The notes under the pieces were generated by a model. That model did no database searches. It saw nothing but the letters and a program-made list of their open reading frames with translations, and was not told where the DNA came from. A program made the translations under genes and the position numbers. From Haloarcula halophila (GTDB lineage: Archaea > Halobacteriota > Halobacteria > Halobacteriales > Haloarculaceae), in the NCBI RefSeq assembly GCF_029278565.1, contig NZ_CP119559.1:620001-684000 (forward strand): DNA of 64,000 bases, written 5' to 3'. Position 1 is the first letter of the stretch, and each line of letters begins with the position of its first letter. Below, one piece after another: positions 8,623 through 14,061 of this stretch.

Positions 8623-8632
8623 CATATTTTTA
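8623..8632 (+). promoter_or_regulatory. TATA box of the permuted LivK-type gene
   Basis: catattttta lies 26 bases before the ATG at 8658. The placement predicts a leaderless mRNA starting at that ATG, so it argues against the GTG at 8652 as start. Confidence 0.6.
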
Positions 8633-8657
8633 CGTTGGGGTTCAATCACGGGTGACT

Positions 8658-10049
8658 ATGTCTCGTGACAGCAGTCGACGAACGTTTCTGAAGCGAACCG
8701 GCGCGCTCAGTTCCCTCGGTATCGTGGGGCTGTCGGGTTGTACGACCGAACAGGCCGACGGGGGAAGTGGTGACGGCGGCAGTGATGGCGGCAGCGGTGA
8801 CGGCGGTGACGGCGGCAGCGGGGACGGTGGCGACGGCGGCAGTGGTGACGGTGGTAGCTCCGTCGGTCCCGACGTCCTCATCGTGGTCGGCTACCCACAG
8901 AGCGGCGTCCAACTGTTCAAGGACTACTACTCGGACTACGACGACGACGATGTCGACATCCTCGTCACCGACGGCCTCCAGTCCTCGGATCTGCCGGGCA
9001 ACGTCGGCAACGACATGTCCAACGTGATGGGGACGGCACCGACCTCCTCCGGCCCCGGCCGGGAGACGTTTGCCGACCTGTTCACCTCCGAGTTCGACTA
9101 CGACGAGCCCGGCGTGTTCACCTCCCAGGCCTACGACGCCAGCGCGGTCCAGATCCTCGCGAACGTCATGGCCGGCGAGAACGACGGCGAGGCCATCCGT
9201 GACCACATGCGTGTGGTCGCCAACCCCGGTGGAACGAGCTACGGTCCCTCGGAGCTCCCCGAAGCCGTCGAGGCGGCCGCAGCGGGCGAGAACATCAACT
9301 ACCAGGGTGCCTCCAGCAACGTCAATTTCGACGGAAACGGCGACATCACCTCCGCGCGCTACCAGGTCTTCGGGTTCAACAGCGACGGCTACGAGACCCA
9401 ACAGACCATCGACTTCGGTGCCTCCGGGAGCATCCCGGAGCCCGAGCCCTCGGCGAGTGGCTCCGACAGCGGGCGGACGGTCCGGCTGGGCGTCCTCCAG
9501 CCCGAGACCGGCGACCTCGGTCCGCTCGGTGTCGCGATCCGGGACGCCGCGCTCCTGCCGGCCCGGCAGCTCGAAGGGGAGGTCGACTTCACCTTCGACA
9601 CGCAGGTCGGTGACACCCAGTCACAGGCCCAGGCGGCCATCGACGCGGCGAACTCGCTGGTCAGCGCCGGTTACCCGATGATCACCGGTGCGGCGAGTTC
9701 CGAGTCGACGATCCAGGTCGCCAACAACGTCCTGACGAACAACGGCGTCGTCGCCTGCTCGCCGGCCTCGACTTCGCCGGCGATCACCTCCCTGGAGGAC
9801 GACGACTACCTCTTCCGGACGCCGCCGAGCGACGCGCTCCAGGGCCAGGTGCTCGCCCAAGTCTCCACCGAGGAACTCGGCGCCTCGACGGCCTCGACGC
9901 TGTATCTCAACAACAGCTACGGCCAGGCGCTCCAGGAGAGCTTCGTCTCCGCGTTCGAGGAGGCCGGCGGTTCGATCGTCAGCCAGGTCGGCTTCGAGTC
10001 CCAGCAGTCCTCGTACACCTCGCAACTCAACAGCGCGCTGAGCCAGTAG
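8658..10049 (+). CDS. livK: Branched-chain amino acid-type ABC substrate-binding lipoprotein, circularly permuted
   Basis: A 463-residue secreted receptor with a Tat signal (RRTFLKR at 7-13), lipobox Cys28 and a Gly-Asp-Ser linker (35-68). The type I periplasmic-binding fold is present but out of order. Residues 71-253 (PDVLIVVGYP to TIDF) correspond to the family's C-terminal half. A 19-residue Gly/Ser/Pro linker follows, and then 273-463 (RTVRLGVLQPETG to SYTSQLNSALSQ) correspond to the family's N-terminal half. In normal relatives LNSAL runs directly into PDV. The frame is intact, with its own promoter and T-tract. It faces livHMGF convergently and probably serves that transporter. The ligand class is inferred from the neighbours. 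Confidence 0.85.
   Translation: MSRDSSRRTFLKRTGALSSLGIVGLSGCTTEQADGGSGDGGSDGGSGDGGDGGSGDGGDGGSGDGGSSVGPDVLIVVGYPQSGVQLFKDYYSDYDDDDVDILVTDGLQSSDLPGNVGNDMSNVMGTAPTSSGPGRETFADLFTSEFDYDEPGVFTSQAYDASAVQILANVMAGENDGEAIRDHMRVVANPGGTSYGPSELPEAVEAAAAGENINYQGASSNVNFDGNGDITSARYQVFGFNSDGYETQQTIDFGASGSIPEPEPSASGSDSGRTVRLGVLQPETGDLGPLGVAIRDAALLPARQLEGEVDFTFDTQVGDTQSQAQAAIDAANSLVSAGYPMITGAASSESTIQVANNVLTNNGVVACSPASTSPAITSLEDDDYLFRTPPSDALQGQVLAQVSTEELGASTASTLYLNNSYGQALQESFVSAFEEAGGSIVSQVGFESQQSSYTSQLNSALSQ
8761..8862 (+). repeat. Gly-Asp-Ser linker micro-repeat
   Basis: Imperfect tandem copies of a ggcggcagtggtgac-like unit encode the flexible tether after the lipobox Cys. Such low-complexity coding repeats are common in haloarchaeal lipoproteins and are possible recombination points. 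Here the repeat ends right at the permutation junction. Confidence 0.75.
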
Positions 10050-10064
10050 CTCCGCACGCAGCCG

Positions 10065-10071
10065 TTTTTTT
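10065..10071 (+). terminator. T-tract terminator of the permuted LivK-type gene
   Basis: Seven consecutive T residues 16 bases after the stop codon, following GC-rich sequence, match an archaeal intrinsic terminator. It lies in the short gap before the convergent livF stop. Confidence 0.6.
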
Positions 10072-10081
10072 GCTCCGCCGA

Positions 10082-10837
10082 TCAGCCACCGAGGAACTCC
10101 CGGCGGACCTGCTCGTCGGAGAGTAACGTCTCGCCGGTGTCCTGATACCGGTTCTCTCCCTGCACGAGGACGTACCCCCGGTCACAGCGGCGCAGCGCCT
10201 CCTTCGCGTTCTGCTCGACCATCAGCACCGCCGTCCCGTCGGCGTTGATCTCGTCGATGCGGTCGAACATCTCCTCGACGAGGTCGGGTGCCAGTCCGGC
10301 CGACGGCTCGTCCAACAGGAGCAGATCGGGGTCGAGCATCAGCGCCCGCCCCATCGCGAGCATCTGTCGCTGGCCGCCCGAGAGCGTCCCCGCCTTCTTC
10401 CCCGATCGCTCCCGGAGGATCGGGAACCGGTCGTAGACGGCCTGGATGCGGTCCTCGGGGACCGAGTCGAGGATGTACGCGCCCATCTCCAGGTTCTCGC
10501 GGATCGAGAGGGTCTCGAAGACGTTGTCGCTCTGTGGAACGTAGCCGATCCCCTCGTGGATGATCTGGTCGGGCCGGAGCTGTTCGATGTTGAGCCCGTC
10601 GAAGACGACCTGTCCCCCCATGTAGGTCGTGAGCCCGAACACCGACTTCATCACCGTCGACTTGCCAGCGCCGTTGGGGCCGACGATGACGACGTACTCG
10701 TCGTCGGCGACGTCCATGTCCACGTCCGAGAGGACCTGGAGGTCGCCGTAGCCGGCGTCGAGATCACGGACCGAGAGCAGGCTCTCGGCCGGGTCGGGGA
10801 GCTCGACCGCCGCCGAGCGCTGTGCGGTCGGGCTCAT
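10082..10837 (-). CDS. livF: Branched-chain amino acid ABC transporter ATPase LivF
   Basis: A 251-residue cytoplasmic ATPase of the HAAT importer family. It shows Walker A GPNGAGKST, a Q-loop region at GYVPQSDNVF, ABC signature LSGGQRQML, Walker B LLLLDEPSAGLAP and an H-loop-like VEQNAKEAL; the LivF class normally has Gln or Glu-Gln at this switch. It is the last gene of livHMGF, and its ATG overlaps the livG stop by 4 bases (ATGA), implying translational coupling. The operon ends 32 bases from the convergent receptor gene. Confidence 0.95.
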   Translation of the reverse strand: MSPTAQRSAAVELPDPAESLLSVRDLDAGYGDLQVLSDVDMDVADDEYVVIVGPNGAGKSTVMKSVFGLTTYMGGQVVFDGLNIEQLRPDQIIHEGIGYVPQSDNVFETLSIRENLEMGAYILDSVPEDRIQAVYDRFPILRERSGKKAGTLSGGQRQMLAMGRALMLDPDLLLLDEPSAGLAPDLVEEMFDRIDEINADGTAVLMVEQNAKEALRRCDRGYVLVQGENRYQDTGETLLSDEQVRREFLGG

Positions 10838-11673
10838 ACGTCACCCCCCAGGTAGGCATCGAGAACACGGTCGTCGTTGCGGATCGTCTCGGCGTCGCCC
10901 TCGGCCAGTACGCTCCCCTGGTGCATGACGATGATGTGTTCACAGTGGTTCATGATGACGTCCATGTCGTGTTCGACCAGCAGGAAGGTCAGCCCGTCCT
11001 CACGGAGGTCGTGGATGCGTTCGAGCAGTTTCTCCTCCAGCGTCGGGTTGACGCCGGCCAGCGGTTCGTCCAGCAGGACCATGTCGGGTTCGGTCATCAG
11101 CACGCGGGCCATCTCTAGCAGTTTCCGCTGGCCGCCCGAGAGGTTCCCGGCGTTCTCGTGGGCGAGGTGGTCGATCTCGAAGAACTCCAGGGTCTCCCAG
11201 GCCCGTTCGACGACCTCGGTCTCGTCGCGTCTGACCCCGTCACGAAGTCCCGGCACCACTGCCCGTAGCGCGGACTCGCCGGCCTGATCGGGCGGGGCGA
11301 GCATGACGTTCTCCAGGACGGTCATCTCGGAGAGTTCGCGGGCGATCTGGAAGGTCCGGACGAGGCCGCGCTGGGCGATGGCGTACGGCGGGAGGCCCGT
11401 GATGTCCTGGCCGTCGAACCGGACCGTGCCGTCGGTCGGCGCGTGTGCGCCGGTGATACAGTTGAACGTCGTCGACTTGCCGGCACCGTTAGGCCCGATG
11501 AGACCGGTCAGTGCGCCCGGCCCGACGGCGAAACTGGCGCCGTCGACGGCGGTCACCCCGCCGAACTCCTTGCGCAGTCCGTCGACCTCCAGCAGCGGCG
11601 CGTCGATCGCCGCACTCTCGACCGCCGGCCCCTCCTCGGTATCGGTCTCGGCGTCGGGGACGGTCTCACTCAT
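10834..11673 (-). CDS. livG: Branched-chain amino acid ABC transporter ATPase LivG
   Basis: Second ATPase of the importer. From the ATG at 11673 it starts with an acidic N-terminal extension of about 25 residues, then LLEVDGLRKEFGGVTAVD, Walker A GPNGAGKST, signature LSGGQRKLL, Walker B MVLLDEPLAGVNP and switch VEHDMDVIM. The C-terminal LGG motif is typical of LivG. The start at 11673 overlaps the livM stop by 8 bases (ATGAGTGA). The longer in-frame start at 11745 lies deep inside livM and is rejected. Confidence 0.95.
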   Translation of the reverse strand: MSETVPDAETDTEEGPAVESAAIDAPLLEVDGLRKEFGGVTAVDGASFAVGPGALTGLIGPNGAGKSTTFNCITGAHAPTDGTVRFDGQDITGLPPYAIAQRGLVRTFQIARELSEMTVLENVMLAPPDQAGESALRAVVPGLRDGVRRDETEVVERAWETLEFFEIDHLAHENAGNLSGGQRKLLEMARVLMTEPDMVLLDEPLAGVNPTLEEKLLERIHDLREDGLTFLLVEHDMDVIMNHCEHIIVMHQGSVLAEGDAETIRNDDRVLDAYLGGDV

Positions 11674-12937
11674 CGGTCTCACCTCCCTCGGGTCGGTCCA
11701 GCGGGACGCTGCTTGCCGGTTCGGTTCGGTGGCCCAGCAACCCATCGGGTTGGCGCTGGATGATGAGGATCAAGACGACGCCGATGAGGACGAACCGCAG
11801 CGTCGAGATGTTGGCCGCCGTATAGGCGACCAGCGGGACCGGGTCGAGCGACGACAACGCCGCGACCGCTTCGACGATGTTACCCGGCGTCCCGCTGCCG
11901 GCCACGGGCGCGTACTCGCCGAGACGTGCCGGCACGTAGAACAGCAGGGCGGAGAAGGTCGCCGCACCGAGAATACTCCCCGTGTTCGATCCCGAGCCGC
12001 CGATGATGAGCGCGGCGAAGACGTAGAACGTGATCGCCGGCCGGAACTGCTGTGGGCTGATGTAGCCGGCCTGCCCGCGGAACAGGGCACCGGCCAGCCC
12101 CATCAGCGCACAGCCGATCATGAACGCCTTGATCTTGAACAGCCGGGTGTCCTTACCCAGCGACTGGGTGACCGTCTCGTCTTCCCGGATCGCCTTCAGG
12201 ACGCGGCCGAACGGCGAGTTCGCCACGCGGGTGAGCAGCCAGTAGGACCCGCCGACCACCGCGAGCAGGACCAGCCCGTACGCGATGTTGGCCACGTTCG
12301 GGCCGGAGACTCCCACGCCCTCGGCCGCAGCGACCAGGGGCTGGCCCGGTCCGTTGATCACTCCGGAGACGACACCACTCGGAGAGGCAAAGGAGATGCC
12401 GGTCCCACCGCCGGTCCCGAAGCGGGCACCGAACAGCTGGATCTCGGCGATCCCGCCCCAGTTGACGAACAGCCGGATGATCTCCGAGAGCGCGACCGTG
12501 ACGATAGCGAGGTAGTCGGCCTTGAGCCGCAGTGCCGGCAACGCGGCGACCGCGCCGACGACGGCGGCCATCACCATCCCACCCAGCAGTCCGACCCACA
12601 GCGGGAGGCCGAACCCGGGAACCCCGCCGGCACCGGGGTCAACCGGTGCGGTCAGGATCGCCGTGGTGTAGGCACCGACTGCCATGAACCCGGCGACGCC
12701 GATGTTGAACAGCCCGGTGTACCCCCACTGGAGGTTCAGCGCCAACACGAGGATCGCGTAGGCCGCGACGAGGATGGTGACGCTGCCGATGAAGCCGGCC
12801 GCGAGGTTCGGCCACTGCTGGCCGCCCACGAGGAACGCGAGGGCGGTCAACAGCAGCCAGATCCCGGCCAGGAAGCCGACGACCAGCACCGCATCGGGCA
12901 GGCCGTCCATGCGTGCCCGGACGCCAGCAGTGCTCAT
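11666..12937 (-). CDS. livM: Branched-chain amino acid ABC transporter permease LivM
   Basis: A 423-residue integral membrane permease with roughly ten hydrophobic segments. LivM hallmarks are visible: LQWGYTGLFNIGVAGFMAVGAYT, LPALRLKADYLAIVTVALSEI and the cytoplasmic EAA-like loop GRVLKAIREDETVTQSLGKD that contacts the ATPases. It overlaps livH by 4 bases upstream and livG by 8 downstream. It forms the channel with LivH. Confidence 0.95.
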   Translation of the reverse strand: MSTAGVRARMDGLPDAVLVVGFLAGIWLLLTALAFLVGGQQWPNLAAGFIGSVTILVAAYAILVLALNLQWGYTGLFNIGVAGFMAVGAYTTAILTAPVDPGAGGVPGFGLPLWVGLLGGMVMAAVVGAVAALPALRLKADYLAIVTVALSEIIRLFVNWGGIAEIQLFGARFGTGGGTGISFASPSGVVSGVINGPGQPLVAAAEGVGVSGPNVANIAYGLVLLAVVGGSYWLLTRVANSPFGRVLKAIREDETVTQSLGKDTRLFKIKAFMIGCALMGLAGALFRGQAGYISPQQFRPAITFYVFAALIIGGSGSNTGSILGAATFSALLFYVPARLGEYAPVAGSGTPGNIVEAVAALSSLDPVPLVAYTAANISTLRFVLIGVVLILIIQRQPDGLLGHRTEPASSVPLDRPEGGETDE

Positions 12938-14061
12938 GCAGTCGTCACCCCCGAGAAGATCCCGGACGGCCGCAACAGGAGCACGACGATGAGCACGAAG
13001 AACGCGGAGGCCTTCGTCAGTCCCGAGGGAAGCCAGATCAGCGCCATGCTGTCGACCAGGCCGATGACGACGCCCCCGGCCATCGCCCCGTAGATCGAAC
13101 CGATCCCCCCGAGGATGACCGCCGAGAAGATGAGCAACAGGAGGAGCCAGCCGAAGTTGAAGGAGATGGTCCCGCTCTCCAGGACCAGGAGATAGCCGCT
13201 CATCCCCGCGAGTCCGCCGCCAAGGATCCAGGTCAGGCGAACGACTCGCTCGGTCGGGATACCCGTCACGCGAGCCAGATCCTCGTTGTCGGCCATCGCA
13301 CGCATGGCCTTCCCCAGTTTGGTCCGCTGGAGCAAGACGTGGACGCCCAGCATCGCGACGACCGAGACCACCAGCAGCGTCAGTTCGTTGTCCGTGATCG
13401 TGACGGTCCCGCTGGGAAGCGCCAACAGCGTGACCTGGAGGCCACTGGTCGCGACACCGCTGGTCTGTGTCCCGAAGACGAACGCGATCCCGTACCGGAG
13501 CGCGAGCGCGACCCCGATCGACGCGATCAGCAGGGAGATGCTCCCCGAATCACGCATCGGTCGGTAGGTCAACCGATCGAGGAGCAAGACGAGTACGATC
13601 GAGCCAACGCTGGCCACGACGAGACCGGCCAAGACCGGAAGGAGCGTCGTGACGGCACTCAGTTGCTCCCCGGAGTTAAACAGGAACAGTTGATCGAGCG
13701 ACGCGCCCGTCCCGACGCCGGCGAGGATATAGGCGACGACCCAGCCGAAAAATGCGCCGGCGGTGACGGTATCCCCGTGTGCGAAGTTCGCGAAGTCGAG
13801 GATACTGTACGTCATCGAGAGACCGATTCCGGCCAACCCGACGGCCAGCCCGACCAGGATTCCGTCTAACACCATCGTCCCCAGCGAGGGGATAGTGAGC
13901 GATCCACCGATCAGTTTGATTCCCCCGAAATAGAGGTTCGTCCCACTCAGTTTCACGAGGAGGTCGAGCAAGAGGTACCCGATGACGGCGCCGACGGCGA
14001 TTCCACCGGGTCGCTCGACGACAAGGCGTCCTCGTTCTCTGACCGACTCTGCGATAGCCAT
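12934..14061 (-). CDS. livH: Branched-chain amino acid ABC transporter permease LivH
   Basis: A 375-residue permease and first gene of the operon. Family marks are LSMTYSILDFANFAHGD near residue 85, the TYRPMRDSGSISLLIASIGVALALR segment and the cytoplasmic loop LGKAMRAMADNEDLARVTGI. The N-terminus carries about 20 extra hydrophilic residues before the first helix, as usual in haloarchaeal LivH. The ATG at 14061 is supported by a TATA element 30 bases upstream. Confidence 0.94.
   Translation of the reverse strand: MAIAESVRERGRLVVERPGGIAVGAVIGYLLLDLLVKLSGTNLYFGGIKLIGGSLTIPSLGTMVLDGILVGLAVGLAGIGLSMTYSILDFANFAHGDTVTAGAFFGWVVAYILAGVGTGASLDQLFLFNSGEQLSAVTTLLPVLAGLVVASVGSIVLVLLLDRLTYRPMRDSGSISLLIASIGVALALRYGIAFVFGTQTSGVATSGLQVTLLALPSGTVTITDNELTLLVVSVVAMLGVHVLLQRTKLGKAMRAMADNEDLARVTGIPTERVVRLTWILGGGLAGMSGYLLVLESGTISFNFGWLLLLLIFSAVILGGIGSIYGAMAGGVVIGLVDSMALIWLPSGLTKASAFFVLIVVLLLRPSGIFSGVTTA

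Follow-up and report, generated by a model that had tools for sequence, protein, structure and literature searches.

A naturally circularly permuted LivK-type receptor gene of Haloarcula halophila: block order, spread among haloarchaea and origins

The gene at positions 8658–10049 (forward strand) of the window, i.e. the whole stretch of 64 000 nucleotides analysed here, encodes a LivK-type substrate-binding lipoprotein in which the C-terminal half comes first, followed by a linker and the N-terminal half. Is this order real, can such a protein serve an ABC importer and how did it arise? The order had been described in an earlier note on this DNA, and it was borne out by profiles of the canonical blocks and by the Pfam and PDB 3td9 matches of the un-permuted sequence. 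Beyond this single window, the permuted form is widespread and conserved, it has several apparent origins and a second permutation was found in the same family. We consider it probable that the whole is explained by a functional, naturally permuted type I receptor which arose in place, by permutation that recurred at the same loop, one lineage being permuted again.

The open reading frame is intact, from the ATG at 8658 to the stop codon at 10047–10049 (463 amino acids plus stop). A GTG at 8652 provides an alternative longer start. The Tat-type lipoprotein signal peptide claimed earlier was retrieved at 8658–8741 (MSRDSSRRTFLKRTGALSSLGIVGLSGC), with the twin arginines at residues 7–8 and the lipobox LSGC with Cys28. 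Both motifs are present in 70 of the 76 distinct permuted ORFs. On the same strand, the signal is followed by a Gly/Asp/Ser-rich tether between the lipid anchor and the folded domain (8742–8867), the C block (8868–9416, residues 71–253), the linker between the former C- and N-termini (9417–9467, clade A type, see below), the Na block (9468–9593, residues 271–312) and the Nb block (9597–10043, residues 314–462). The C block corresponds to the C-terminal half of a canonical protein and runs through the second half of lobe 2 into the end of lobe 1. It begins with PDVLIVVGYP and holds Asp105, the equivalent of Glu226 of the E. coli LBP. The Na block is the canonical N-terminus (beta1-alpha1 of lobe 1). 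The Nb block comprises the remaining N-part of lobe 1 and the first half of lobe 2, holds Ser348 and Thr372 (equivalents of LBP Ser79 and Thr102) and stops at the cut loop (NSALSQ-stop). The block boundaries proposed in the earlier note were right within two residues, with a linker of 17–19 amino acids.

A putative TATA-like element (ATATTTTTA, 8624–8632, forward strand) was recognized by eye about 30 nt before the ATG, a position that would suit a leaderless haloarchaeal transcript. A run of seven T (10065–10071, forward strand), also noted by eye, is a possible terminator. The receptor gene is convergent with livF (ABC ATPase, 10082–10837, ABC_tran, 108 bits). Then come livG (ABC ATPase with BCA_ABC_TP_C, 10834–11682) and the permease genes livM (11666–12937) and livH (12934–14061), all four on the reverse strand. 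Pfam (ABC_tran twice, BPD_transp_2 twice) and synteny agree with the complete livHMGF operon reported earlier. The sole other match to the family in this genome is weak (26% identity).

Block order was analysed using Na, Nb and C profiles built from canonical haloarchaeal LivK proteins only. The window protein was matched in the order C (260 bits), Na (65 bits), Nb (220 bits). Compared separately with LivK homologues, as the earlier note had proposed, the two halves thus map to the C- and N-terminal halves of one family. As encoded, the match to Pfam Peripla_BP_6 was split in two (91.6 bits), profile positions 1–186 matching residues 274–460 and thus the latter half of the chain. Once the canonical order was restored, the match ran in one stretch (profile 1–310) and reached 111.8 bits. 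Both scores lie above the curated cut-off of 31.7 bits and place the protein in Peripla_BP_6 / HAAT. The un-permuted sequence was aligned with the Thermotoga maritima LivK structure (PDB 3td9) over residues 3–317 with 64.3 bits; the N-terminal half alone gave 36.9 bits. The best matches were LivK/LivJ proteins and Peripla_BP_6, and homology to the MglB sugar family was not found. Since the blocks stand in the order C-Na-Nb and the match improves on un-permuting, both the permutation and its boundaries are confirmed. With a C block, a linker and then the N blocks instead of the canonical N-to-C order, the window protein is a permuted variant of Peripla_BP_6 / HAAT (LivK) and not an ordinary member.

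The same order was found in related genomes, about 162 of the 392 haloarchaeal genomes sampled (about 40%, nine family groups). This number is a manual count of the genomes whose best match had E < 1e-80, matches of this strength being regarded as full-length and colinear. Chance is excluded because the arrangement recurs so often. The colinear order is present in 28 genomes of the genus of the window (its own included) and in many other families. Named isolates include Haloarcula pellucida (JCM 17820), Halomicroarcula rubra and Haloarcula amylovorans. Outside Halobacteriales, no permuted form was found among 295 genomes sampled across the phylum; 46 of these had matches, and the five matching genomes from outside the order matched with the N half only. 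Bacterial relatives (loci L010–L013 and L015; L numbers designate fetched loci) have the canonical order. Duplicate fetches included, the loci contained 86 ORFs in the order C-Na-Nb (P1), 93 canonical ORFs (K) and six in the order Nb-C-Na (P2, three distinct). Nearly all K, P1 and P2 genes lie in one arrangement, the receptor gene being followed by convergent livF, livG, livM and livH. Canonical orthologues hold the same locus in other haloarchaea, with about 50–65% identity block by block. Permuted receptor genes are under purifying selection (pairwise dN/dS 0.03–0.24, NG86). In the genus of the window, L093–L095 carry a canonical LivK paralogue with a co-directional livHMGF, apart from the convergent locus. 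In L052 (4875–6200), L053 (4578–6176) and L158 (4992–6308), a single permuted receptor has an RR signal and no evident lipobox; from their sequences, these proteins are perhaps soluble or anchored otherwise.

Every P1 protein is cut in the same loop (...SAL/xPD..., the slash marking the cut). By alignment of the un-permuted sequence, this loop maps to the C-terminal lobe of the E. coli LBP, whose lobe boundaries, as we assume them, were used to place the cut in lobe 2. The linker starts where canonical proteins end (TIDFGG-stop in canonical L177 versus TIDFGGSGDIPQPEP in clade A L016). It ends at the start of the canonical mature domain (SFEAKVGVL in canonical L091 versus SFTARVGVL and EFEARIGVL in clade C). 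A linker running from the canonical C-terminus to the mature N-terminus is what would be expected if tandem copies fused and the outer segments were lost. From these sequences, the most likely history begins with a canonical livK at this locus, which would have been duplicated in tandem, fused in frame and trimmed of its outer segments. The duplication-and-trimming event suggested in the earlier note is thus likely, given the linker ends and the tandem P1 copies at the locus in one genus, but the tandem livK ancestor was not retrieved: the fetched loci contained neither two canonical genes in tandem, the expected ancestor, nor a fused double gene as an intermediate. The tandem permuted pairs precede the same liv operon in L050, L152 and L183 (genus g46: G096, G198, G148 and others), and the copies nearest livF are without an obvious lipobox cysteine. 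In L078 (4995–6578), a canonical receptor has a Gly/Asn/Ser-rich, linker-like C-terminal tail.

The number of origins was estimated from trees. In a careful tree of the un-permuted receptor sequences (79 rows, 370 columns), P1 was split into four clades. Clade A contains the window and Haloarcula (linker IPxPEPSxSGS) and clade B contains L045, L147 and L148 (glycine-rich linker). Clade C (L047 type, linker DEDxxATAxDPVGVD) is nested among the canonical L091, L086, L170 and L171 (support 100/97 and 100/100). Clade D (linker GPSADSxPGGxGRT) is large and contains P2. A single clade of all permuted proteins was rejected (p-AU 0.0023); with the receptor tree alone, A+D, B+D and A+B were each not rejected. 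An independent LivFGMH operon tree (84 rows, 1239 columns) gave the same picture. In AU tests performed on quick trees (LG+G4), with groups named after the trees had been seen, the operon data rejected one clade for all permuted proteins (p 5e-5), C+D and also A+B+D (p 0.026), while the combined receptor and operon data allowed A+B as one clade and rejected A+B+D (p 0.0017). In the receptor, operon and combined trees, permuted proteins occur in three or four places. The permuted form arose more than once, a single origin being rejected (AU p 0.002 to 5e-5). As A+B is allowed and A+B+D rejected in the combined data, our best estimate from these sequences is three P1 origins (A+B, C and D). This count depends on the operon genes, and on receptor and operon having been inherited together, because the receptor tree alone allows A+D, B+D and A+B. 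A fusion of two distant paralogues is not favoured: trees of each protein half give the same permuted clades A–D, with sister groups that differ in places with weak support.

P2 was found in three genomes, at L074 (= L009, 4992–6413), L076 (= L008, 4755–6161) and L165 (4974–6419). These proteins are cut in lobe 1: they start at beta2 of this lobe and carry beta1-alpha1 at the C-terminus. All three lie inside clade D in the receptor tree, L074 and L165 also in the operon and combined trees, and the clade D linker is kept. P2 could be a product of P1 after another round of duplication; alternatively, P1 and P2 could both descend from one fused double gene. L165 begins and ends differently from L074 and L076, so the three proteins may not come from one event. 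In P2, the tether would again be attached to lobe 1, close to the canonical position. At least three independent LivK permutations at one syntenic locus, all at the same lobe-2 loop, plus one more inside a permuted clade, with the tether leaving lobe 1 for lobe 2 and later returning, form a scenario to which we give an even chance.

The alternative that survives best is that the permuted form arose once and that the canonical order was then restored several times, or the receptor exchanged between lineages. The cut loop common to all permuted forms could hint at fewer origins of this kind, P2 is a case of re-ordering within a lineage that was permuted before, and the receptor data alone let some clade pairs join. 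However, one clade was rejected by both receptor and operon data and A+B+D by the combined data. Clades A–D stay apart in both half-trees, and their linkers are unlike. Many reversions would also be needed (canonical L091, L086/L171, the L069 group, L184, L097/L173, the L084 group and L179). One gain with many reversions is mechanistically possible and less parsimonious; we regard a single origin as improbable and retain repeated permutation.

The predicted structure, another check proposed earlier, was obtained with AF2. The model made from 48 permuted homologues had a pLDDT of 88.3 and a pTM of 0.87; a single-sequence model (pLDDT 34.5) was set aside and only the alignment-based model was used. 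Its N half superposed on residues 1–192 of the leucine-bound protein 3ipc (Z 13.6, rmsd 2.3 over 189 residues). Foldseek and VIA are sequential and so aligned mainly the N half of the model. With PDB 5er3, the model was colinear over its residues 1–369 (Z 13.3, rmsd 4.2, 11% identity), a match that may reflect the exchange of two pseudo-symmetric lobes. LBP residues S79, T102 and E226, which we take to be those binding the amino-acid head group, align with S348, T372 and D105 (the acidic residue is kept, Asp for Glu), and these three residues are invariant in the 48 permuted proteins. The linked liv permease and ATPase genes are in keeping with membership of the family. From the confident model, the 3ipc match and the invariant S348, T372 and D105, we infer that the window protein is an amino-acid-binding flytrap for LivHMGF.

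The permuted receptor would be exported by the Tat pathway and lipidated at Cys28. It would then fold as a normal two-lobed flytrap, with the flexible linker joining the old ends and the start of the chain lying midway through lobe 2. Lobe 2 would carry both chain ends and the lipid tether, which would be on lobe 1 in the canonical protein, and lobe 1 would be contiguous. Tethering through lobe 2, as the earlier note had it, is supported by the position of the cut. A possible effect of the tether site was also raised by Brautigam and colleagues for TpMglB-2 (PMC4990184). The most likely role of the receptor would be to hand an amino acid over to LivHMGF, the importer encoded next to it.

Membrane transducers are partners of some haloarchaeal binding proteins, and the permuted receptor might serve mainly in signalling, like the chemotaxis binding protein BasB, rather than in transport; this is very unlikely, as its gene adjoins livFGMH in nearly all loci read. 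That the window gene is decayed or non-functional is less probable still: the ORFs are intact throughout, dN/dS is 0.03–0.24, the ligand-site residues are invariant and the genome of the window is without a close second receptor. An assembly artefact or a collapsed tandem duplicate, suggested by an order unusual for the family and by the tandem copies in relatives, is ruled out with near certainty by the same order at 75–93% identity in independent assemblies (e.g. Haloarcula pellucida JCM 17820) and by about 162 genomes with the same synteny.

Canonical haloarchaeal LivK proteins (e.g. L067, L091 and L084) share with the window protein the orthologous locus, Tat/lipobox export and the adjoining liv operon. 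They differ by their N-to-C blocks, a tether on lobe 1 and the absence of an internal linker. The LivK/LivJ structures 3td9, 3ipc, 4n0q and 1usg resemble it in the N-half fold, the un-permuted sequence match and the ligand-site residues, but have another chain order and about 18–25% identity. Contrary to the earlier note, which knew of no described ABC receptor with a natural permutation, two cases are published. Glycine-betaine binding proteins have the type II fold and belong to a family unrelated to the window protein. Permuted ABC-importer binding proteins were recognized among them with CPSARST (2b4l versus 1r9l/1sw1, pairwise identity below 24%; PMC2395249). The other case is TpMglB-2 (Tp0684) of Treponema pallidum (Type Ic / cluster Bc), a natural permuted type I lipoprotein encoded beside ABC genes, which retains glucose binding and has relatives in many bacteria (PMC4990184). 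It belongs to a sugar family and is cut in the N lobe, its first three strands being at the C-terminus, and the moved part is weak in sequence match (PMC4990184). The window protein is likewise a natural circular permutation of a type I binding protein. In contrast, it is of the LivK family, is cut in lobe 2, has clear homology in both parts and belongs to a form with several origins. Only P2 (L074, L076 and L165) is cut in the N lobe as in Type Ic, and is in this respect closer to TpMglB-2 than P1. Searches of the open-access literature yielded no permuted receptor from haloarchaea or of LivK type, no cut in lobe 2 and no locus at which permutation had recurred; recurrent, lobe-2-cut permutation of LivK-type proteins appears undescribed.

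Natural circular permutation is usually pictured as one event in the distant past, seen between proteins whose divergence is too great for a reconstruction. In this family, canonical, permuted and twice-permuted receptors stand at one locus with about 50–65% identity. This makes the route, the choice of the cut site and the effect of the tether directly open to study. The topology is present in about 40% of the sampled haloarchaeal genomes, and half-length profile matches may have masked such receptors. Permuted LivK receptors are natural templates for permuted amino-acid sensors. Recurrent permutation of LivK, if true, would mean that protein topology evolved in parallel, perhaps under selection for the position of the tether, and the locus offers a natural experiment on how proteins survive being cut and re-ordered.
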